From positions 62,001-126,000 of the forward strand of contig JANQFH010000012.1 of NCBI GenBank assembly GCA_028277945.1: a DNA stretch of 64,000 nt. The letters run 5' to 3'. Position numbers and translations under genes: made by a program. Each line of letters starts with the position of its first letter. Positions within the stretch are counted from its first letter, which is position 1. This document shows, one piece after another, positions 23,193-53,286 of the stretch. This stretch comes from Oligoflexia bacterium (GTDB lineage: Bacteria; Bdellovibrionota_G; JANQFH01). The notes below the pieces were generated by a model. It made no database searches. It was not told where the DNA came from and saw only the letters and a program-made list of their open reading frames with translations.

Positions 23193-24692
23193 TCAGGCTT
23201 CATCATTAAGCCAGTGAGCATCCCACGTCAAGACGGGCCGACGTGCGGCACGAACCTCATCAAAACGCTCACCCCCTAGTTGGTGTGGCGCCGATCGAAC
23301 CACCTGTGGTTGTTGTTCTGCCTCTTCAGCAATGGCACGCATGGCGGCAACAAATTGATCGAGTTCTTGACGAGAAACGGTCTCTGTGGGCTCGACCATG
23401 AGCGCCCCCTTGACGATCAAAGGAAAGTAGACCGTAGGTGGATGAAAACCAAAGTCCATCAACCGCTTGGCAATATCCATTGTCGTTACATTATTTTTAC
23501 GTTGCTTCTTATCAGAAAAGACGACTTCGTGCAGGGTTGCGCTTGCAAACGGCAGATCGTAGTAATCCTGTAGCTCTTGGCGTAAGTAGTTTGCGTTGAT
23601 TACGGCAGCCCCAGAAACTGCGCGCAGGCCTTCTGCTCCGTGCGCAAGAATATAGGCATAGGCCCTTAACAGCACAGCAAAACTCCCGAAAAAGGGTTTG
23701 ACACGCCCAATGGAACACTCGCCTCTTTCCAAAAGGGTGTAAATACCAGCTCTTTTGGCAACATAGGGGGTGGGTAAGAAGGGTGCAAGGTTCGCCACAC
23801 AGGCCACGGGCCCGGCACCAGGGCCTCCACCGCCATGAGGTGTTGAAAAGGTTTTATGCATATTCATATGCATAACATCGATTCCCATTTTTTTAAAATG
23901 AACTCGGCCTAACAGAGCGTTGAGGTTGGCACCATCGCAGTAAATCATACCCCCACGGCTATGAATAACTTCAGCAATACCGGCAATCTCTTTTTCGAAA
24001 ATTCCTAGGGTGTTAGGAATGGTGATCATCAATGCCGCAACCGATGAATCCATATGACGCGCAACCGTCTTTGCCGTTAGAATACCATCGTCGTTCGACG
24101 CCAAAGGAACCACTTTTAAGCCACAGAGCGAACTGCTAGCAGGGTTGGTACCATGGGCGCTGTCAGGAATCAGCACCTTGGTGCGTTTTTCACCGCGGCT
24201 TTTATGAAAGGCATCAACCATCTTCAGACCGACAAACTCCCCTTGTGCACCTGCCGCACACTGCAGCGTCACATCATCCATACCGGTAATCCCACAGAGA
24301 CTACGTTGCAACTCATACAAAACTGCCAATGCCCCTTGGATACTACTTTCCGGCTGACTCGGGTGTAAGTCTTTGAATCCGCCTAACCCGGCAACGGCTT
24401 CATGTATTTTGGGGTTGTATTTCATGGTGCAAGAGCCTAATGGATACATGCCTTCGTCAACGCTAAAATTGTGCATGGACAGCCGGGTAAAGTGACGCAC
24501 CACCTCAATTTCACTTAGATCTGGAAAGTTTGCTATATCCGATCGGAGCAGCCCTTGTGGCAAATGTGTTTCTGACTTTGGCAGAGGGCTTGATTGCTTT
24601 TTTGCTGATCTCTCCAGTAAAGTTGGCTCATGACGAAAGTAACGTTGAACCAACCCCGGCTTGCTACGCTGCTTCACTACCACGGTAACCAC
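23193..24692 (-). CDS. gcvPB: Glycine dehydrogenase (decarboxylating) subunit 2
   Basis: The 499-residue C-terminal half of P-protein as a separate subunit. The PLP site is 'MHMNMHKTFSTPHGGGGPGAGPVACV' (Lys in the MHKTFSTPHG motif), with 'NPKIHEAVAGLGGFKDLHPSQP' and 'DSAHGTNPASSSLCGLKVV' earlier. With GcvPA it decarboxylates glycine and transfers aminomethyl to GcvH. The start is a GTG at 24692 directly after the gcvPA stop. The two-subunit arrangement is the one found in Gram-positives, Thermotogae and many deltaproteobacterial relatives rather than the fused E. coli enzyme. Confidence 0.95.
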   Translation of the reverse strand: MVTVVVKQRSKPGLVQRYFRHEPTLLERSAKKQSSPLPKSETHLPQGLLRSDIANFPDLSEIEVVRHFTRLSMHNFSVDEGMYPLGSCTMKYNPKIHEAVAGLGGFKDLHPSQPESSIQGALAVLYELQRSLCGITGMDDVTLQCAAGAQGEFVGLKMVDAFHKSRGEKRTKVLIPDSAHGTNPASSSLCGLKVVPLASNDDGILTAKTVARHMDSSVAALMITIPNTLGIFEKEIAGIAEVIHSRGGMIYCDGANLNALLGRVHFKKMGIDVMHMNMHKTFSTPHGGGGPGAGPVACVANLAPFLPTPYVAKRAGIYTLLERGECSIGRVKPFFGSFAVLLRAYAYILAHGAEGLRAVSGAAVINANYLRQELQDYYDLPFASATLHEVVFSDKKQRKNNVTTMDIAKRLMDFGFHPPTVYFPLIVKGALMVEPTETVSRQELDQFVAAMRAIAEEAEQQPQVVRSAPHQLGGERFDEVRAARRPVLTWDAHWLNDEA

Positions 24693-26048
24693 CTAACGCT
24701 GCGCTCTCGCAGTTGCTGCGAGCTTTTCAACAAACCTCTCAACATCCGCCTCACTGTGAGTTTCGGTAAAATTGACTAAAAGGCAGGTTGGCAGATCTAC
24801 TGCGGTGAGAGCTTGTCCAGCAATGATCTTCTCCTTCTGCAGAGCTACTACAACGTTAGCGCTGTTCACGCCAAGATCTACAACACATTCGTTGAAAGCC
24901 ACACCACTAAAACGTAGGCCTAGGTCAGGCGTCTTTTTAAGCAGACTTAAAAATTGCCCCATACGCTTAGCGTTTTTTACTGCTAACTGATGCATACCCT
25001 GTTTACCGAGTAGGGCCATGTAAATGGTTGCACGTAGTGCTAAAAGAAACTGATTGGTACAGATATTCGATGTTGCTCGCTCACGTCTTATGTGTTGTTC
25101 ACGAGTCGCCAACGTCAATACATATCCGTCTTGACCCGTAGCATCTGTGGTTCTGCCAACCAAACGGCCTGGCAGATTACGTAAGTGTCGCTTCATGGTG
25201 GCAAGAATGCCAAGGTGGGGGCCACCAAAGTTTACGGGATTGCCCAGACTCTGGCCCTCCCCAGCAAAAATGTCGATGCCATAGTCTCCTGGCGGCTTTA
25301 AAATACCGTAGGCGATGGGTTCGTTGTTACAGACAATGGATAGCAGCTTGTGCTCCTCTGCATAGCGACTATAAGCGGTAAGATCCTCAAGACACCCCCA
25401 ATAATTGGGAGACTGCACTACCACGGCAAAGGTTTCTTCAGGGACCTGCGTTTGCGCAAAGTGGGTCAAGCCGGTGGCAGCATCATAGGGCACGGTATCG
25501 ACCGCAAATAGACCTTGCGCATAGGTAGCGAGCACCTGACGGTACTGCGGGTGCACCGCTTCACTGACCAAAACTCTGCTCCCAGCCTTGATACGTCTCG
25601 CCATAAGCACTGCTTCGACAAGTGCGTTAGCACCGTCATACATGGAGGCGTTTGCTACATCCATACCCACTAGGTTGGCGACAAACGACTGAAACTCAAA
25701 GCCAGCTTGCAAGTTACCCTGACTGATCTCAGCCTGATAAGGTGTATAGCTAGTAAGAAACTCACCCCGTCCAGCAAGTGCATCTACAGCTGCGGGAATA
25801 TAGTGCTGGTAAGTTCCGGCTCCAAGAAAGGAACACCATCCCTTGCCAGCATCGGCTGTCTGGTTTAATTCGGCAAGACGAGAAAAACGATTAAAGATCT
25901 CTTGTTCGCTAAGCGGACCCTCAACGTCCGCAAGACCGGAAAAACGCACGGTCTCTGGAATCATTGCGAACAGTTCGTCTACTTCTTTTGTCTTTAGAGC
26001 ACTCAGAAGGGCCTGGATTTCGCCCTGATCGTGCGGGATGTAATGCAT
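24693..26048 (-). CDS. gcvPA: Glycine dehydrogenase (decarboxylating) subunit 1
   Basis: The 451-residue N-terminal half of P-protein: 'MHYIPHDQGEIQALLSAL', 'CSFLGAGTYQHYIPAAVD', 'FLTSYTPYQAEISQGNLQAGFEFQS', 'DVANASMYDGANALVEAVLMA' and 'NICTNQFLLALRATIYMALLG'. It forms an alpha2beta2 enzyme with GcvPB. Its ATG overlaps the gcvH stop by one base (TAATG), and its stop abuts gcvPB, so gcvH-gcvPA-gcvPB are tightly coupled. Confidence 0.95.
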   Translation of the reverse strand: MHYIPHDQGEIQALLSALKTKEVDELFAMIPETVRFSGLADVEGPLSEQEIFNRFSRLAELNQTADAGKGWCSFLGAGTYQHYIPAAVDALAGRGEFLTSYTPYQAEISQGNLQAGFEFQSFVANLVGMDVANASMYDGANALVEAVLMARRIKAGSRVLVSEAVHPQYRQVLATYAQGLFAVDTVPYDAATGLTHFAQTQVPEETFAVVVQSPNYWGCLEDLTAYSRYAEEHKLLSIVCNNEPIAYGILKPPGDYGIDIFAGEGQSLGNPVNFGGPHLGILATMKRHLRNLPGRLVGRTTDATGQDGYVLTLATREQHIRRERATSNICTNQFLLALRATIYMALLGKQGMHQLAVKNAKRMGQFLSLLKKTPDLGLRFSGVAFNECVVDLGVNSANVVVALQKEKIIAGQALTAVDLPTCLLVNFTETHSEADVERFVEKLAATARAQR

Positions 26049-26473: not shown

Positions 26474-27577
26474 TCAACGATTGATATTTATAAAGGGTGG
26501 TTTCACTAAGTCAACCTCCTGTGGCTTGTTCCGAACCATCATCTCCAAAGTCGGCTGCTGATCAAAAGGTTTCTGTACGTAGGCTAAGCCAATGCCACAA
26601 TCGAGCGTTGGCGAGTAGCTACCGCTAGTTATCTCACCCACCGGGCTGCCCTCGGCATACAAGCGGTAGCCGCGCCTCGGTATAACCTGCCTGCCGCCCC
26701 GAACCCCTACGAGTCGTCGCTTTAAGCCCTCTTGCTGCTGCTTTACAAGCGCGGCTTTGCCAATAAAATCATCACCATTGAGCTTAACCACCCATTGTAG
26801 ACCTGCCTCTAACGGCGTCGTCGCTTCATCCAGCTCATGACCGTAGAGCATATAACCCATCTCTAGGCGCAGCGTATCCCGCGCCGCCAGACCAATGGGT
26901 TTGACCTTGCCATCACCGAGATTTAGCAATTGCTGCCATAGCGACAACGCTGCAGAAGCTGCACATTCGATCTCAAAGCCATCTTCTCCGGTATAGCCGG
27001 TTCGACTCAGTACCACAGGAACATCAAAGAGCTCACGTTGCACAAAGGAGAAAGGCCGCATAGATTCCAACTCACCAGCAACCTTTTTGGCAAGCAGGCT
27101 CATAGCCTGCGGACCTTGCAGCGCCATCAACGCCGTGGCCTCGGTTCGGTCCTCGATCTCCACATCCCTGTGCGGTTGTTCTTTAAGCCAGGCAATAACC
27201 TGTTTTCGACGCGACGCATTGACAACAAGCTCATAGTGTTCCTGACCAAAACGAAAGATGGTGAGATCATCGACACAGCCACCATTAGCAAGGCAGAGCA
27301 CCGTGTACTGCACACGCCCATCTTTGAGGCGACGGACGTTGTTCACAGAGACAGCCTGGCAAAAGGCTTCGGCTCCAGGTCCACAAATGTGCAAGCGGCC
27401 CATGTGGCTGACGTCAAAGAGCCCTGCAGCCCGTCGCACCTGCAGGTGTTCCTCAACCATCTTGGTGTAGCTAAGCGGCAGAGCGTAGCCAGCAAAGTCA
27501 ACCAGCTTAGCCCCAAGCTCAACATGTGCTTGATAAATCGGCGTCTGCTTTAATCCATTGGCTGCTAAGGTGCCCAT
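26474..27577 (-). CDS. gcvT: Glycine cleavage system aminomethyltransferase (T protein)
   Basis: A 367-residue GcvT. 'TPIYQAHVELGAKLVDFAGYALPLSY' begins the folate-binding domain, followed by 'RRAAGLFDVSHMGRLHICGP', 'DDLTIFRFG' and 'LSRTGYTGEDGFEIEC'. The C-terminal 'GKAALVKQQQEGLKRRLVGV...GEITSGSYSPTLDCGIGLAYV' is standard. It releases ammonia and forms methylene-THF. ATG 27577 matches the family start; the frame runs further upstream without a ribosome site. It is the first gene of gcvT-H-PA-PB, 72 bp after folD, whose product acts on the same methylene-THF. No glycine riboswitch is visible in that gap. Confidence 0.95.
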   Translation of the reverse strand: MGTLAANGLKQTPIYQAHVELGAKLVDFAGYALPLSYTKMVEEHLQVRRAAGLFDVSHMGRLHICGPGAEAFCQAVSVNNVRRLKDGRVQYTVLCLANGGCVDDLTIFRFGQEHYELVVNASRRKQVIAWLKEQPHRDVEIEDRTEATALMALQGPQAMSLLAKKVAGELESMRPFSFVQRELFDVPVVLSRTGYTGEDGFEIECAASAALSLWQQLLNLGDGKVKPIGLAARDTLRLEMGYMLYGHELDEATTPLEAGLQWVVKLNGDDFIGKAALVKQQQEGLKRRLVGVRGGRQVIPRRGYRLYAEGSPVGEITSGSYSPTLDCGIGLAYVQKPFDQQPTLEMMVRNKPQEVDLVKPPFININR

Positions 27578-27649
27578 ATTGCGGCCAAAAGAGCACCACA
27601 ACACCTGAAAAAACGCAAGCAAATTGGCGGTATGAACAAAGACTTGGGA

Positions 27650-47400: not shown

Positions 47401-47429
47401 GAACGGTCATACGACAGGTACAGGGTTGA
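44424..47429 (+). CDS. pilQ: Type IV pilus secretin PilQ with three AMIN domains
   Basis: The 1001-residue secretin starts with 'GLGLVLILSSCGGSP', a lipobox at Cys24, suggesting the secretin itself is lipidated. Three AMIN-like domains follow (about 45-150, 200-300, 370-475), separated by Ala/Glu/Pro-rich linkers. Next come an STN-type N0 domain ('INLDFKDADIRSLFRLFADISKLNIIVGDDVKGKVTIRL'), an N1 domain, and the secretin barrel ('GNAKLISSPKVTVLDNRPATILSGTKIPFLTQT', 'VSITVTPHITADGSV', 'QELLIFVTPRIV'). It is the outer-membrane pore for the pilus. It follows pilP after 13 bp. Confidence 0.95.
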   Translation: MSRAMIRTVIPIFGLGLVLILSSCGGSPTPKGADLDPGETELNTLTNISVNELDASTLIEISAEKDLTPNVFKLTDPLRVIIDFTDTKLGEIQTPLAVNNGIINEISVDQFDDVSSSLSRVVIGFDALVDYEVSPESNVLTVSVPKEGAVAADAELAVEEFAETDELIAEPAAETAEIDIIDVLDDIPVEETPTPSVPATMLADITLSTSGGETVISLQGDGNFENIDDFILDDPERLVIDLKGVKSNVGAKSRIAVDEGLVASVRTGSHTDKARVVVDFTPGSSPNYRLDRRNDGLDIVVSASLLDTEPFAETTSPSITEEPAETIVDISELPLAQLPVEDPFAAEVAVAAEAEPFAEIPQAPIATTPSYQIDSVDFVQTQASSRLVVKTTAPASYSTYDEGSDTVVLTLNGATISQAASRFLDTSAFNSAVSLVVPKQVGKDTRIVTTLKETVPYKVTQDGNLLYLDFERSKDFATDLAPAVTDATTPSEEPAAIAEAVPAEAPPAPAEKTETADEIIIEDEAELFEPVATKEDDDTRYEYVKEELLSETLSRTGESQEFNDDMIFEAGSAPSSKYTGRKINLDFKDADIRSLFRLFADISKLNIIVGDDVKGKVTIRLRDVPWDQAFAILLQTRGLGAIKYGNIIRIAPAGKIQKERELFAQAKKAAIAAAPLDTLFKAVSYATAAEIAAHVRTVLSERGSVDIDNRTNTLIIRDVREKLVEAKTLIDKLDAQTPQVSIEARIVEANDTFVRNWGVQWGATADFSAATGNPTGILFPNSIGATGSVLPTPPLGGTNPVLLNFPPTGANSSVTLNLGSINNVLDLDLLLGYEESEGNAKLISSPKVTVLDNRPATILSGTKIPFLTQTANAGSNVRFESAVISITVTPHITADGSVIMNITATRNEPDFGQQVLGNPTIIQREATTEVLVKSGNTTVIGGIYRINRTRNTSGFPFLRKVPILGWFFRSDNRRLERQELLIFVTPRIVGDERTVIRQVQG

Positions 47430-47434
47430 TCGCG

Positions 47435-47920
47435 ATGATATCTCGTAGAATGTTGCAGCTAGTACTGCTCTCTCTTCTGTTTCTCGTGCCTAGCTGTGGT
47501 GACAACATCCCGGGAACAGCAGGTTCAATCACCTTTACGCCCAGCGGAGTTGATCTAGAAACTTCTACCATTGGCGTCAGTAGGCAGAAGGTAACCTTCA
47601 ATATCGCTGATTCAGACGGCAACCCAATCCAAGACATTGAGTACCGTATTATGACCTACCTGCATGACAAACTACCGCAGGCAGGAGCTGCCGGTGTCAT
47701 TGCCTTTACCGATGAAAATGGTAATCCTCTTAACATTGCCTCCCCAGATAGCTCTAGCGATCAAAACAACGTCATTGAAGGTACCACCAATAACCTGGGC
47801 AATGGTGAATTCTTCTATCAGTTTCCCACTGGTGGTAACGATTATGAATTCAGCATCTTCGTACTTGCGGCAAGGGCCATAGGTACCTTTACTCAGACAG
47901 TATCAGGGCCATCATCGTGA
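47435..47920 (+). CDS. Lipoprotein with an Ig-like fold, pil-operon associated (paralogue 1)
   Basis: A 161-residue lipoprotein with lipobox 'LFLVPSC'. The mature part, 'GSITFTPSGVDLETSTIGVSRQKVTFNIADSDGNPIQDIEYRI', looks like a Big_1/invasin-type Ig domain with 'GNGEFFYQFPTGG'. ATG 47435 is just after the pilQ stop. Its stop overlaps the next gene's start (TGATG). It shares the 'GS.T..PSGVDL' opening with the next gene, so the two are tandem paralogues. Role unknown; a pilotin-like or secretin-associated lipoprotein is a reasonable guess. Confidence 0.7.
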   Translation: MISRRMLQLVLLSLLFLVPSCGDNIPGTAGSITFTPSGVDLETSTIGVSRQKVTFNIADSDGNPIQDIEYRIMTYLHDKLPQAGAAGVIAFTDENGNPLNIASPDSSSDQNNVIEGTTNNLGNGEFFYQFPTGGNDYEFSIFVLAARAIGTFTQTVSGPSS

Positions 47921-48345
47921 TGCGGTTCGTAGCCATAGTAAAGATGCTTTGTCTTGTTGCCAGCCTGGCGCTTTTTGGCTGCAACGACGACATTGCGCCA
48001 ACAGGATCGACCATTACTGTCTTACCCTCTGGTGTGGACCTTCAAGACATTGGTGTGGCTGGTGATCGCACCTTTGCCACCTTCATTGCTGAAGTACGCG
48101 ATCCTGAAGGCAATCCAACCAGCGATATCGAAGTAGAGGTAACCACCTTTTTTCTCCGCGTCCAAGATGCCAACGGTGTATTCCAAGACCCTCCAGCTAC
48201 GACCTTCCGCACCGACGACAATGGCCAGGTGGTTTTCGTTGTAGAAGTCCCCATCCAAACGGCCTCCTATCGCGAAGCCATGCAAGTAAATTCCGGCATT
48301 GCCAGTTCCGGCCCCATTGAAATCGAAGTCTCCCCCGCAGAATAG
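47920..48345 (+). CDS. Lipoprotein with an Ig-like fold, pil-operon associated (paralogue 2)
   Basis: A 141-residue lipoprotein with lipobox 'SLALFGC'. 'GSTITVLPSGVDLQDIGVAGDRTFATFIAEVRDPEGNPTSDIEVEVTTFFLRV' again resembles a Big_1-type domain and closely parallels the preceding protein; 'FRTDDNGQVVFVVEVP' is the typical second half. The in-frame GTG at 47917 is one codon before the ATG used. It is the last gene of the pil operon and ends at a perfect 27-bp palindrome. Confidence 0.7.
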   Translation: MRFVAIVKMLCLVASLALFGCNDDIAPTGSTITVLPSGVDLQDIGVAGDRTFATFIAEVRDPEGNPTSDIEVEVTTFFLRVQDANGVFQDPPATTFRTDDNGQVVFVVEVPIQTASYREAMQVNSGIASSGPIEIEVSPAE

Positions 48346-48419: not shown

Positions 48420-48770
48420 CTACGATTTTGGTTGGTTGTTGGCGTCAACAAGGACGATCGTTGGCCTGTGGCTGGCGACCTCGTCTGGTTCCAACTGCAC
48501 GTAGGTGACAATGATCACCTCGTCCCCAGGTGAGGCCAGTCGCGCTGCAGCACCGTTGACGCAGATCTCCCCCGAGCCGGCAGCCGCACTAATGGCATAG
48601 GTGGTAAAGCGGGCGCCATTGTTGAGGTTGTAAACCTCAACCTGTTCATACGCGGTGATGCGGGCCCGATCCATCAAGCTCGCATCGATACTGAGGCTAC
48701 CTTCATACTCCAGCAAGGTTTTTGTCACGGTAGCGCGATGCAGCTTTGAGTTGAGAAAAGTCAGCTTCAT
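48420..48770 (-). CDS. panD: Aspartate 1-decarboxylase proenzyme
   Basis: A 116-residue pyruvoyl enzyme. The self-cleavage site Gly24-Ser25 lies in 'LEYEGSLSIDASLMDRARI'; 'YEQVEVYNLNNGARFTTYAI' supplies the essential Tyr, and 'GSGEICVNGAAARLASPGDEVIIVTY' is the classic closing block. It makes beta-alanine for pantothenate. It is divergent from the KARI-like/panB/panC operon with about 75 bp between, so the two arms can be co-regulated. Confidence 0.95.
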   Translation of the reverse strand: MKLTFLNSKLHRATVTKTLLEYEGSLSIDASLMDRARITAYEQVEVYNLNNGARFTTYAISAAAGSGEICVNGAAARLASPGDEVIIVTYVQLEPDEVASHRPTIVLVDANNQPKS

Positions 48771-48846: not shown

Positions 48847-49725
48847 ATGAGGGGGCAGCGCAGTATAACGATCATCGGCTACGGCAGTCAAGGGTGCGCC
48901 TGGGCACACAACCTAAGGGATCGTGGCTACGAGGTGAACCTGGTTCTGCCAGATTCCAGCCGCTCGCATGCCAGAGCGCTGACGGATGGCTTTATCACTA
49001 CTGCCCTAAGCGATAGCCTGCCGCAGAGCCACCTCTATGCCCTACTCATTCCCGACGAGCACCAGAGCAGCTTTCTGCAAAATTATCAGCAACAGCTGCC
49101 TGCTGGAGCGACACTGCTCTTTGCCGATGGCTACAGCGTGGTATTTGACCAACCCAAGCTACGCAGCGATATCGATGTATTGCTGTTGGCCCCACGCTGC
49201 ATCGGCCCAAAACTGCGAGAAAGCCATCGGCGTGACCTCCCTGTTACCTTTGTCCTCGCGGTGTGGCAAAATGTCAGTGGCCAGGTCTGGCGCCAGCTTG
49301 CCAAACTCGCGCATGATCTTGGCGGAACTAAAAGCAAGCTGCTCCACTCCACTTTTAAAGAGTGCGCTGTTGCCAACCTCTTTTCTGAGCAGGTACTGCT
49401 GTGCGGTGGCCTACCGGGTCTCGCTGCAGAGACCTGTCAGCAGATGATCGAGCGTGGTATTCATCCACAGTTGGCCATTGTCAGCTGTTTCCATGAGCTC
49501 AAGCTCATGACTGAGATGATCGCCGAGTTCGGTGTGGACGGCATGTTTAAACGCATCAGTCCCATTGCCAGGCTCGGTGGGGCTAGAGCTCGTCGCTTTC
49601 TCTTTGACCAAGGGTTTATAAAAAAGATGCACAAGCTCTATGATGATATTGAAGATGGTAGCTTCGATCTCTTTGTGAAGTCCCAATTAGGCACAAACGC
49701 CCAAACCAAGGATGCCTCTTTATGA
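48847..49725 (+). CDS. KARI-like NAD(P)-dependent reductase, candidate ketopantoate reductase
   Basis: The 292-residue protein aligns along its length with class I ketol-acid reductoisomerase (KARI, IlvC). The Rossmann motif IIGYGSQG is at 9-16; 'LLIPDEHQSSF', 'LLLAPRCIGPKLRE', 'TFKECAVANLFSEQVLLCGG' and 'SCFHELKLMTEMIAEFG' follow. Against family numbering, Mg ligands Asp190 and Glu226 are Asn177 and Ser213, while Glu194 and Glu230 are kept (Glu181, Glu217). His107 is Asp94 and Lys130 is Arg117. The N-terminus is trimmed and the C-terminus about 40 residues short. These changes argue against acyl migration but leave the reductase fold. Operon position beside panB, with no panE visible, suggests it reduces ketopantoate to pantoate. 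A TAG 12 nt upstream fixes the start region. Overlaps panB by 4 bp. Confidence 0.8.
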   Translation: MRGQRSITIIGYGSQGCAWAHNLRDRGYEVNLVLPDSSRSHARALTDGFITTALSDSLPQSHLYALLIPDEHQSSFLQNYQQQLPAGATLLFADGYSVVFDQPKLRSDIDVLLLAPRCIGPKLRESHRRDLPVTFVLAVWQNVSGQVWRQLAKLAHDLGGTKSKLLHSTFKECAVANLFSEQVLLCGGLPGLAAETCQQMIERGIHPQLAIVSCFHELKLMTEMIAEFGVDGMFKRISPIARLGGARARRFLFDQGFIKKMHKLYDDIEDGSFDLFVKSQLGTNAQTKDASL

Positions 49726-50492
49726 AAAAACGCAAAACCGTTGTCGACATCTTACAGATGAAAGGCAAAGAGACCATCTCTAGCCTTACTGCCTACGACT
49801 GTGTCACCGCTGCCCTACTAGAGCGCGCTGGCTGTGACATCCTGTTAGTTGGTGACTCGCTTGGCAACGTCCTCCTCGGCTATCCACACACACTGCAGGT
49901 TACCATGGAAGATATGCTCCGCCACGCTGCTGCAGTTGCTCGAGGCAGTAAACAGGCTCTGCTCGTCGCTGATATGCCCTTTCTCTCCTACCAGGCTGGC
50001 CTGGAGAGTGCGCTGCAAAACGCTGGCAGGTTCCTTGCAGAATCTGGTGTGCAAGCGGTAAAAATCGAGGGTGGCAAGCGTAACCAGATGCTCATCCAAA
50101 GGATGGTTGAGATCGGTATTCCCGTCATGGGCCATATTGGTATGACACCGCAGTCTGTACACACCTTTGGTGGTTACCGCCGCACCGGTAAAACCTCAAG
50201 AGATGCGGAAACGCTCATGCAAGAAGCACTCGCTATAGAAGAGGCCGGCGCCTTTGCCATTGTGCTCGAGTGCGTTGAACATGAGGTGGCAGCCAAAATC
50301 ACCAGTGAACTGAAGATCCCGACCATTGGTATTGGCTCGGGAGAGGCGTGTGACGGCCAGGTTCTGGTCATTAACGACCTACTTGGCTATTCACTGCAAC
50401 CACCACCTGGTTTTGTCAAACCAGCTATTGATCTGGCAGCCATGGTCTCGGAGACCGTCAGCAACTACATCCAACAGTTGAAAAAGTCATGA
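49722..50492 (+). CDS. panB: 3-methyl-2-oxobutanoate hydroxymethyltransferase
   Basis: A 256-residue PanB barrel: 'ISSLTAYDCVTAALLERAGCDILLVGDSLGNVLLGYPHTLQVTMEDML', 'LLVADMPFLSYQ', 'AVKIEGGKRNQMLIQRMVEIGIPVMGHIGMTPQSVHTFGGYR' and 'IPTIGIGSGEACDGQVLVINDLLGY'. It makes ketopantoate from ketoisovalerate and methylene-THF. Overlaps both neighbours by 4 bp. Confidence 0.97.
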   Translation: MKKRKTVVDILQMKGKETISSLTAYDCVTAALLERAGCDILLVGDSLGNVLLGYPHTLQVTMEDMLRHAAAVARGSKQALLVADMPFLSYQAGLESALQNAGRFLAESGVQAVKIEGGKRNQMLIQRMVEIGIPVMGHIGMTPQSVHTFGGYRRTGKTSRDAETLMQEALAIEEAGAFAIVLECVEHEVAAKITSELKIPTIGIGSGEACDGQVLVINDLLGYSLQPPPGFVKPAIDLAAMVSETVSNYIQQLKKS

Positions 50493-51265
50493 TCGCCATC
50501 GACATCGGCAATACAGAGACGATTGTCGGCCTATACGAACAAGAAGAGCTCCTCGGACACTGGCGTCTACAGACACGAGTAGGTATGACAACCGACGAAG
50601 TACGGGCCATCCTCACACCGCTCATGGCCACGGTCGGCAAAGACCTACACGAATGCCGGCAGGTTATTATGGCAACAGTGGTTCCCGATCTCAAACAGGT
50701 TTGGGGGAATCTCTTTCGCAACAGAGCTGTGCAGTTTGTTGACAGCCACTCTCCCCTCTCCTTTACCATTGCCGTGGATAACCCAACTGAAGTTGGTGCA
50801 GACCGTCTCGTCAACGCGGAAGCAACCTATCAGCTCTATGGCAAGCCAGCGATTATTGTCGATGCTGGCACTGCCACCACCTTTTGTGTTCTCAGTGAAA
50901 ATGGCGCATACATTGGTGGCGCGATCGCTCCAGGTCTCAGTACAGCAGCTAGTGCCTTGGTGGATCGAGCCGCGCTCTTGAGTCACGTTGATCTTCGCCC
51001 AGCTGAAGGTTTTATCGGTAGCAACAGCAGCAGTGCGCTACGTAGCGGTGTCATCAACGCCCATGCCGTGATGATCGATGCTGTCATTGCCCGACTGCAG
51101 CAAGAGATGGCCGCTAGCAAGGTTCGTGTGGTCGCAACCGGAGGACTCATGCCGCTCTTACGACCGCTGCTTGAAAAGGTGGATCACCATGATGAACTGT
51201 TAACCCTCAGAGGTTTGCGACTTATCGGCAACCGCCTCTTTAACGGGGACAATCATGACTCCTAG
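50489..51265 (+). CDS. coaX: Type III pantothenate kinase
   Basis: A 258-residue ASKHA-fold CoaX: 'MIAIDIGNTETIVGLYEQEELLGHWRLQT', 'NPTEVGADRLVNAEATYQLYG', 'IIVDAGTATTFCVLSENGAYIGGAIAPGLSTAASALVDRAALL' and 'VRVVATGGLMPLLRPLL'. It phosphorylates pantothenate, is not inhibited by CoA in known members, and needs a monovalent cation. It overlaps coaBC by 11 bp. Confidence 0.96.
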   Translation: MIAIDIGNTETIVGLYEQEELLGHWRLQTRVGMTTDEVRAILTPLMATVGKDLHECRQVIMATVVPDLKQVWGNLFRNRAVQFVDSHSPLSFTIAVDNPTEVGADRLVNAEATYQLYGKPAIIVDAGTATTFCVLSENGAYIGGAIAPGLSTAASALVDRAALLSHVDLRPAEGFIGSNSSSALRSGVINAHAVMIDAVIARLQQEMAASKVRVVATGGLMPLLRPLLEKVDHHDELLTLRGLRLIGNRLFNGDNHDS

Positions 51266-52496
51266 AGTTCTGCTCGGTATCACCGGCAGTATTGCCGCCT
51301 ACAAGAGCTGTGAGATCATCTCGCAGTTGGTCAAAGACGGTGTCGAAGTGAAGGTAATCATGACCGAGTCTGCCAAGAACTTCATCAGCCCGCTAACCAT
51401 TGAGACCTTAAGCCGCAACCCCCTACACACCGAGCAGTTTCTCAGCCATGAGACGCCCACCGAACACATTGCACTGGCACGTTGGGCTGATGTTGTTTGT
51501 GTAGCGCCTGCGTCCGCAGATACTATCTGTAAGTACGCCGCTGGCATTGCCGACAACCTGCTGATTACGGAACTACTAGCGTATACAGGGACTGTGCTTA
51601 TGGCACCCGCCATGAACCATAAAATGTACACGAGCTTTCAAGTGCAAAATGCCATTGCCCTGCTAAAACAGCACGGCGTCGGTTTTGTCGATCCCTGGCA
51701 TGGTGAGCTTGCCTGTGGTGAGGTTGGTATCGGCAAGATGGCGCCTCCAGAGCAGATCGTTAGCCGTATCATGCAGACTCTTAGGGCGCAGCCGACCACG
51801 GCTACAGCCAGTCTGCTGCAAGGCAAACGATTACTGATTACTGCAGGCCCAACACGATCTTATATCGATCCAGTGCGTTTCATCAGCAATCCCGCCTCCG
51901 GCAAAATGGGCTTTGCGCTGGCCGAGGCGGCAGCGCAGATGGGAGCAAAGGTCACCTTAATCACGGGCCCGTGTGACTCCTCACTGCACTTTCCGCAGAT
52001 GATTCGTGTGGAGACCGCGGCTCAGATGCGTTGTGCGGTCTTTGAGCAACTCAGAGATGGCGTGGACATTTTTATGGGTGCTGCTGCAGTCAACGACTTT
52101 GGCCTTGAACAACCACACGCGCAAAAAATTAAAAAAGATGGCAAGAGGCTGACTCTAACGCTACAACCTGAAGAAGACATCATTGCTGCAGTGGCCACAG
52201 CAAAACAGAGGCCGCAGCTGGTCGTTGGCTTTGCCGCAGAAACAGAGCAGCTGTTAAACAACGGTCGTGCTAAACTGTTGCAAAAAAACCTCGACTACAT
52301 CGTCATCAACGATGTCTCCAAGCCAAATCAAGGATTTGCTGCTGAGGACAATGCCGCACTTATCCTCTCACGCTTTGGTGAGCAACACGAGCTACCAAGG
52401 ATGCCAAAGCGTGATCTGGCACTGCAAATTTTAGAGGTGATCCATGCAAGTTATCAAAAATATCGCCGAGCTGTGCAAACTCAACTTCAGCCCTGA
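51255..52496 (+). CDS. coaBC: Bifunctional phosphopantothenoylcysteine decarboxylase/synthetase
   Basis: A 413-residue CoaBC (Dfp). The N-terminal flavodoxin-like CoaC part has 'LLGITGSIAAYKSCEIISQLV', the catalytic His in 'TPTEHIALARWADVVCVAPASADT', 'APAMNHKMYTS' and 'GELACGEVGIGKMA'. The CoaB part has 'LLITAGPTRSYIDPVRFISNPASGKMGFALAEAA', 'AAVNDFGLEQPHAQKIKK' and 'VINDVSKPNQGFAAEDNAALIL'. Produces 4'-phosphopantetheine. It overlaps panC by 53 bp, an unusually long overlap. Confidence 0.96.
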   Translation: MTPRVLLGITGSIAAYKSCEIISQLVKDGVEVKVIMTESAKNFISPLTIETLSRNPLHTEQFLSHETPTEHIALARWADVVCVAPASADTICKYAAGIADNLLITELLAYTGTVLMAPAMNHKMYTSFQVQNAIALLKQHGVGFVDPWHGELACGEVGIGKMAPPEQIVSRIMQTLRAQPTTATASLLQGKRLLITAGPTRSYIDPVRFISNPASGKMGFALAEAAAQMGAKVTLITGPCDSSLHFPQMIRVETAAQMRCAVFEQLRDGVDIFMGAAAVNDFGLEQPHAQKIKKDGKRLTLTLQPEEDIIAAVATAKQRPQLVVGFAAETEQLLNNGRAKLLQKNLDYIVINDVSKPNQGFAAEDNAALILSRFGEQHELPRMPKRDLALQILEVIHASYQKYRRAVQTQLQP

Positions 52497-53286
52497 ACAG
52501 CGCCCTTTGGGCTTTGTTCCCACCATGGGCTGTTTGCATGAGGGACATCTCTCTCTCGTGCGCCAGAGCAGAGAGCAGTGTCAAACCACGGTGGTCAGTA
52601 TCTATGTCAATCCAACGCAATTCGGTGCCCATGAAGACTTCGACAACTACCCACGAACTTTTGCGCGCGATTGTGAGCTGCTGCGCCAAGAGGGCGTTGA
52701 CCTGGTCTTTGCACCAACAACTCAACAGATCTATCCTGATGGTTTCTCCACCTACGTCATTGAAGAGAAGCTCTCTACATCTCTGTGCGGTGGTTTTCGG
52801 CCTGCCCACTTTCGTGGTGTCACCACCATCGTTGCCAAACTCTTTAACCTGGTTAAACCTGATATCGCCTTCTTTGGTGAAAAAGACCTGCAGCAGTTTA
52901 AGGTGCTAGAGAAGATGGTGTTGGATCTTAATATGGATATCACCATGCGCGCCTGCCCGACAGTGCGAGAGAAAGATGGGCTGGCCATGAGCTCACGCAA
53001 CAACTACCTTACACCAGAACAGCGTGAAGTCGCACCAAAGCTCTTTTATACGCTGAAGCAGATGCAACAGCGCTACCACCAAGGTGAACACGATGCCGTT
53101 GCCCTAGTACAGTGGGGTAAAAGCCAGCTCGAGGAGACTGGCGACCTTAGAGTGCAGTATCTGGAAGTCTGTTCGCTAAGGGATTTACAACCGGTCACCC
53201 AGCTCTCCAATACAGCTGGCAAGACCTTTATTGCGGCTGCTGTCTATCTTGGTGAGACTCGATTGATCGACAACCTCAAGCTTTAG
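52444..53286 (+). CDS. panC: Pantothenate synthetase
   Basis: A 280-residue PanC: 'PLGFVPTMGCLHEGHLSLVRQSREQC' (HxGH motif), 'VVSIYVNPTQFGAHEDFDNYPRT', 'FFGEKDLQQFKVLEKMVLDLNM' and 'TVREKDGLAMSSRNNYLTPEQR' (KMSKS-like). It joins pantoate and beta-alanine with ATP. The start at 52444 within the coaBC end is supported by a GAGGTG ribosome site and by the family N-terminus. Confidence 0.96.
   Translation: MQVIKNIAELCKLNFSPEQRPLGFVPTMGCLHEGHLSLVRQSREQCQTTVVSIYVNPTQFGAHEDFDNYPRTFARDCELLRQEGVDLVFAPTTQQIYPDGFSTYVIEEKLSTSLCGGFRPAHFRGVTTIVAKLFNLVKPDIAFFGEKDLQQFKVLEKMVLDLNMDITMRACPTVREKDGLAMSSRNNYLTPEQREVAPKLFYTLKQMQQRYHQGEHDAVALVQWGKSQLEETGDLRVQYLEVCSLRDLQPVTQLSNTAGKTFIAAAVYLGETRLIDNLKL

Follow-up and report, generated by a model that had tools for sequence, protein, structure and literature searches.

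We describe a gene of the ketol-acid reductoisomerase (KARI) family that opens a pantothenate operon and, in our view, is highly likely to encode a dedicated ketopantoate reductase. The gene lies at 48847–49725 of the window, by which we mean the whole stretch of 64,000 nucleotides of Oligoflexia DNA analysed here. Its sequence and its surroundings suggest that the product catalyses the PanE step (EC 1.1.1.169), that it evolved from a class I KARI and that it serves outside branched-chain amino-acid synthesis. The operon and its divergent neighbour are composed as follows:

48420–48770, minus strand: panD, aspartate decarboxylase, transcribed away from the KARI-panB operon (TIGR00223, 137 bits)
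48847–49725, plus strand: KARI-derived putative ketopantoate reductase, 292 aa, the sole KARI homologue of the genome
48877–48894, plus strand: Rossmann motif GYGSQG of this protein, residues 11–16, intact in the sequence
49722–50492, plus strand: panB, ketopantoate hydroxymethyltransferase (PF02548, 341 bits; TIGR00222 above cut-off)
50489–51265, plus strand: coaX, type III pantothenate kinase (family models)
51255–52496, plus strand: coaBC (TIGR00521, 412 bits)
52444–53286, plus strand: panC, pantoate-beta-alanine ligase (TIGR00018, 346 bits)

The order KARI-panB-coaX-coaBC-panC with panD divergent, first proposed in the initial annotation from the letters of the window, is borne out by family models for the neighbours, and the overlap of 4 bp that it reported is the ATGA shared by the KARI stop and the panB start (49722–49725). 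The codon-position GC of the KARI gene resembles that of the neighbouring genes. With these genes, the route from ketoisovalerate to phosphopantetheine is complete bar the reduction of ketopantoate, and it is this place in the set that the KARI gene occupies.

The assignment of the gene to class I KARI, also made in that annotation, stands. Both KARI domains of Pfam are recognised above cut-off in the product, KARI_N with 119 bits and KARI_C with 76 bits. Its AlphaFold model has a pLDDT of 90 and a pTM of 0.84 (29-sequence alignment), and all 50 matches listed by Foldseek for this model in the PDB are KARIs, the top ones with a TM of 0.83–0.92. Every NCBIfam ilvC equivalog nevertheless scores below its cut-off (TIGR00465, 215.3 vs 226.15; NF004017, 210 vs 336), and accordingly the product is a KARI homologue that a curated model would not call IlvC. 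Of the features expected from a functional IlvC, we found the two KARI domains and the predicted fold; the full set of four acidic Mg ligands, an equivalog score above cut-off and an ilvD gene in the genome are missing. PanE/ApbA proteins have the same predicted reaction and belong to the same 6-phosphogluconate dehydrogenase-like superfamily, but the ApbA model reaches the window protein over residues 7–42 only, a Rossmann match of 36 residues below cut-off (19.2 vs 22.2 bits), with no ApbA_C. PF10728 (DUF2520, PanG-type) does not match it.

Class I KARIs bind two Mg ions that share D191 as a bridging ligand; E195 is the other acidic ligand of Mg(I), and E227 and E231 are those of Mg(II) (Sulfolobus numbering, PMC5940873). 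We use the family numbering (Asp190, Glu194, Glu226, Glu230), which is the Sulfolobus numbering minus one. The reference alignment holds 39 ordinary KARIs from other phyla, and the residue counts for ordinary KARIs are taken from that set. The positions that matter in the window protein are these:

49126–49128, plus strand: Asp94 replaces His107 (His in 38 of 39 ordinary KARIs, alignment)
49195–49197, plus strand: Arg117 replaces Lys130 (Lys in 39 of 39, alignment)
49375–49377, plus strand: Asn177 replaces Asp190, which in class I KARI bridges the two Mg ions (Asp in 39 of 39; role of the Asp from PMC5940873)
49384–49386, plus strand: Ser180 replaces Gly193, giving FSEQ instead of FGEQ (Ser in 10 of 10 pan-associated KARIs, Gly in 39 of 39 ordinary ones)
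49387–49389, plus strand: Glu181 (Glu194), kept, as in 10 of 10 pan-associated KARIs
49483–49485, plus strand: Ser213 replaces the metal ligand Glu226 (Glu in 39 of 39 ordinary KARIs)
49495–49497, plus strand: Glu217 (Glu230) of the HELK helix, kept, as in 10 of 10 pan-associated KARIs

The alignment thus upholds the four replacements read in the initial annotation (Asn177, Ser213, Asp94 and Arg117) together with its intact Rossmann motif and ELK helix, and adds the change of Gly193 to Ser180, which had escaped it. Gln182, the GxGxxG motif and Ser238 (family Ser251) are also unchanged. A displacement of the metal ligands is rejected, as the alignment runs without gaps through the LFxEQ and HELK motifs that flank them. 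Loss of His107 is no diagnostic mark, since Asp also stands at this position in an ordinary Egibacter KARI whose four ligands are complete. Overall, the window protein resembles class I KARI (IlvC, EC 1.1.1.86) in fold, domain order, Rossmann motif, Glu194, Glu230 and Ser251, at about 30–34% identity and with KARIs as its top structural matches. It differs in the replacement of Asp190, Glu226, His107, Lys130 and Gly193, in its shorter ends, and in an operon and genome context of pantothenate rather than branched-chain amino acids.

A protein with four nearly invariant residues changed and a shortened C-terminus might be in decay or have lost catalysis altogether, perhaps with a regulatory role left. 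We regard this as very improbable given that the frame is intact, that the gene overlaps panB translationally, that the fold is predicted with high confidence, and that changes at the same two ligand positions recur in other lineages under purifying selection, as described below.

The source genome (G000) is a draft of 92 contigs (2.86 Mb, 95.6% complete). The initial annotation, which saw no panE in the 64 kb, had pointed to the full genome as the place to look for one and for a normal ilvC. Our search of the whole of G000 found neither a second KARI nor a hidden ilvC, and ilvD (PF00920) was found in none of five genomes of the phylum (G000–G004) by a search that was positive in 14 of 14 controls. 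The ApbA matches of G000 are GpsA or nucleotide-sugar dehydrogenase-like proteins with no true PanE among them, and a PF10728 search of G000 returned no DUF2520/PanG-type protein. Three candidates for PanE were rejected individually: the best ApbA match is GpsA (421 vs 257 bits), the match on contig C28 reads as a nucleotide-sugar dehydrogenase, and an ORF on C59 appears by eye to be an NmrA/NAD-binding-like protein.

The reduction of ketopantoate by IlvC is itself already established. Salmonella IlvC carries it out with 20-fold lower activity and the ilvC of Buchnera rescues E. coli lacking both panE and ilvC (PMC4306246); B. subtilis IlvC is a third ketopantoate reductase (PMC11487621), and C. 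glutamicum IlvC acts as one according to a passage of PMC4353338 that cites this result. These cases agree with the side activity that the initial annotation had invoked. In them IlvC is part of branched-chain amino-acid synthesis. Neither a dedicated KARI-derived ketopantoate reductase nor ligand-lost KARIs were described in the literature we searched, which lay mostly outside subscription journals. In the window protein, this promiscuous activity seems to have become the business of a dedicated and metal-site-depleted enzyme.

The documented bifunctionality of IlvC raises the question of whether the window protein also isomerises acetolactate, as in Corynebacterium glutamicum or Buchnera, with which it would share the performance of the PanE step by a KARI-family protein. 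Two of the four metal ligands remain, and an acetolactate synthase (PRK08322 type, 879 bits; G000:C61:95136-96725) is encoded in G000, so that the cell may contain the substrate for isomerisation; no biosynthetic-type ilvB exceeds the cut-off in this genome. However, bifunctional IlvC also serves valine and isoleucine synthesis, whereas without ilvD acetolactate in G000 cannot reach valine by the known route. Besides the five phylum genomes, ilvD is absent from all eight further panB genomes that we checked, seven of which have a KARI. The bridging Mg ligand and a second ligand are moreover lost from the window protein. We therefore consider a bifunctional enzyme highly unlikely. The gene for the acetolactate synthase (L055 1501-3141) adjoins an Na/H-antiporter-like gene.

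The dedicated reductase that we favour finds support in the four other genomes of the phylum (G001–G004). G001 and G002 represent two other genera. In G001 a 311-aa KARI ends 5 nt upstream of panB, in the order KARI-panB-coaX-coaBC-panC, and in G002 the gene of a 315-aa KARI overlaps panB. KARI therefore adjoins panB in three genera of the phylum, and in G000 this conserved linkage goes together with the presence of panB and the absence of any other recognised ketopantoate reductase. FSEQ, GG[LV]P and SPxA are common to the three KARIs. Those of G001 and G002 keep all four metal ligands, the His and the Lys, which indicates that ligand loss is no requirement for the proposed pantothenate role.

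The two remaining genomes of the phylum lack a KARI. G003 has panB-coaX-coaBC and carries a DUF2520 (PanG-type) protein; in G004, which is 74% complete, panB is missing as well. The DUF2520 family, which we take to be the PanG of Francisella, is different from that of the window KARI, and its members seem to supply the missing step where panB occurs with neither KARI nor PanE (G003 and, below, G110). The single exception to one reductase per genome is G002, which also has a PanE-family protein (TIGR00745, 225 vs a cut-off of 141; L042 8295-9239 on G002:C36). Its presence means that the G002 KARI may be redundant or that the PanE-like protein has another job; seen from its own side, the PanE-family protein may be the redundant one, or a reductase of a different 2-keto acid.

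We used the FSEQ segment to query a set of 84,980 species genomes. Apart from ordinary planctomycete KARIs, this turned up ligand-lost ones in Neoehrlichia lotoris, Anaplasma capra, A. marginale and one Diapherotrites MAG. The ligand-lost KARIs carry ANLFSEQ (D190N) with AY[FL]GC or AYLYS (E226G or E226Y). All four genomes have panB; ilvD and PanE are absent from all four, and the ApbA matches, where present, are GpsA. The Anaplasma and Neoehrlichia KARIs (annotated ilvC; KAR in PMC7142369) are like the window protein in the two ligands lost, in FSEQ and GGxP and in genome context, but they keep His107 and Lys130, and no KARI-panB linkage was found within the Anaplasmataceae flanks examined. 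In the Diapherotrites archaeon (G058; L058 1232-2158, L096 1195-2001), the ligand-lost KARI has also lost His107 and Lys130, and the genome, which contains panB, gave not one ApbA or ilvD match. We think a bacterial contaminant unlikely in this case, the neighbouring ORFs looking archaeal by eye.

Among 55 Anaplasmataceae genomes, KARI is present in 6 of the 7 with panB and in 0 of the 48 others (Fisher p = 2.4e-7, for genomes that are related and not phylogenetically independent). A published table agrees independently with this co-occurrence: it credits A. marginale and A. centrale with KAR, PanB and PanC but not with KPR, and shows KAR, PanB and PanC as all absent from Ehrlichia, A. phagocytophilum and Neorickettsia (PMC7142369). 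The seventh panB genome (G110) carries a Rossmann-like/DUF2520 protein beside panB-panD, and neither KARI nor PanE. This panB-panD-DUF2520 cluster (L103 163-2313) has a Glu/Leu-dehydrogenase-like gene just upstream and may correspond to the panB-panG set described in some Wolbachia (PMC9903615).

This distribution also bears on the substrate. KARI reductase activity is broad on 2-keto acids (Tyagi et al. 2005, as cited in a passage of PMC11487621), and the window protein could reduce another one, e.g. ketoisovalerate or a hydroxypyruvate-like compound, and be co-transcribed with panB by chance. Nonetheless the presence of KARI tracks panB over two bacterial phyla and one archaeon, KARI alternates with DUF2520 proteins among panB genomes, and without it the pathways of G000, G001 and the Anaplasmataceae have no recognised reductase. 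A different substrate is for these reasons an unlikely explanation.

Where measurable (Anaplasmataceae), dN/dS between ligand-lost genes is 0.06–0.19, i.e. they are under purifying selection and thus maintained. Since ligand loss recurs in Anaplasmataceae and in an archaeon that have panB and lack ilvD and the usual reductase, the window protein is very probably a dedicated enzyme of vitamin B5 synthesis. The initial annotation had arrived at a specialised ketopantoate reductase from the loss of the isomerase metal site with the fold retained. The specialisation gains support from the panB linkage in two more genera and from the parallel cases in Anaplasmataceae and Diapherotrites, and remains a prediction from sequence; the loss of the metal site does not stand as its condition, given the intact ligands of the G001 and G002 KARIs.

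We then considered descent. A tree built without the trait columns places nine of the ten pan-associated KARIs in one group (96/95) and the window KARI with those of G001 and G002 (99/94). The likelihood is slightly better with all ten held together than in the free search. The branches are long, and a single clade of pan-associated KARIs is consequently favoured, not proven. One origin and parallel loss of the ligands are both compatible with the AU test, which gives p = 0.41 for a single clade holding the eight ligand-lost rows. Given the ligands kept in G001 and G002, loss of the metal site may have come after the switch to pantothenate duty, or in parallel with it.

A mechanism can be proposed for the dedicated reductase. 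PanB would convert 2-ketoisovalerate, which in the absence of ilvD probably derives from valine, into ketopantoate. The KARI-like protein would bind NAD(P)H in its Rossmann domain and reduce the 2-keto group to give pantoate, and PanC would join pantoate to beta-alanine. The dinuclear Mg centre is used for alkyl migration, and because ketopantoate requires no such step, the two-magnesium site would be dispensable. Substrate positioning or proton donation probably falls to the retained Glu194, Glu230 and Ser251 with no dinuclear centre involved, much as PanE works without metal, and the isomerase step was presumably lost along with the dinuclear site.

Beyond the window, there is a reasonable likelihood that these proteins form a separate clade of Mg-independent ketopantoate reductases derived from KARI, found in bacteria and DPANN archaea without branched-chain amino-acid synthesis, misannotated as ilvC (including in Anaplasma), marked by FSEQ and mostly GGxP, and working without the dinuclear metal centre. 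If true, the PanE gap in the pantothenate pathway would be filled in several lineages, including the tick-borne Anaplasmataceae, and an ilvC annotation that wrongly implies branched-chain amino-acid synthesis would be corrected. Such enzymes would also exemplify in nature the loss of the isomerase half and the metal site from a bifunctional enzyme whose reductase half is kept, making the division of labour within the KARI active site directly testable.

Finally, we observed two further gene arrangements elsewhere in the window. Recognised by eye only, a split glycine decarboxylase with two GcvP subunits lies at 23193–26048 (minus strand), with a gcvT-like gene nearby at 26474–27622. Directly after a pilQ-like gene, two overlapping and mutually similar small lipoprotein-like genes (47426–47920 and 47917–48345, plus strand) both contain the motif PSGVDL and have the look of a tandem duplication.
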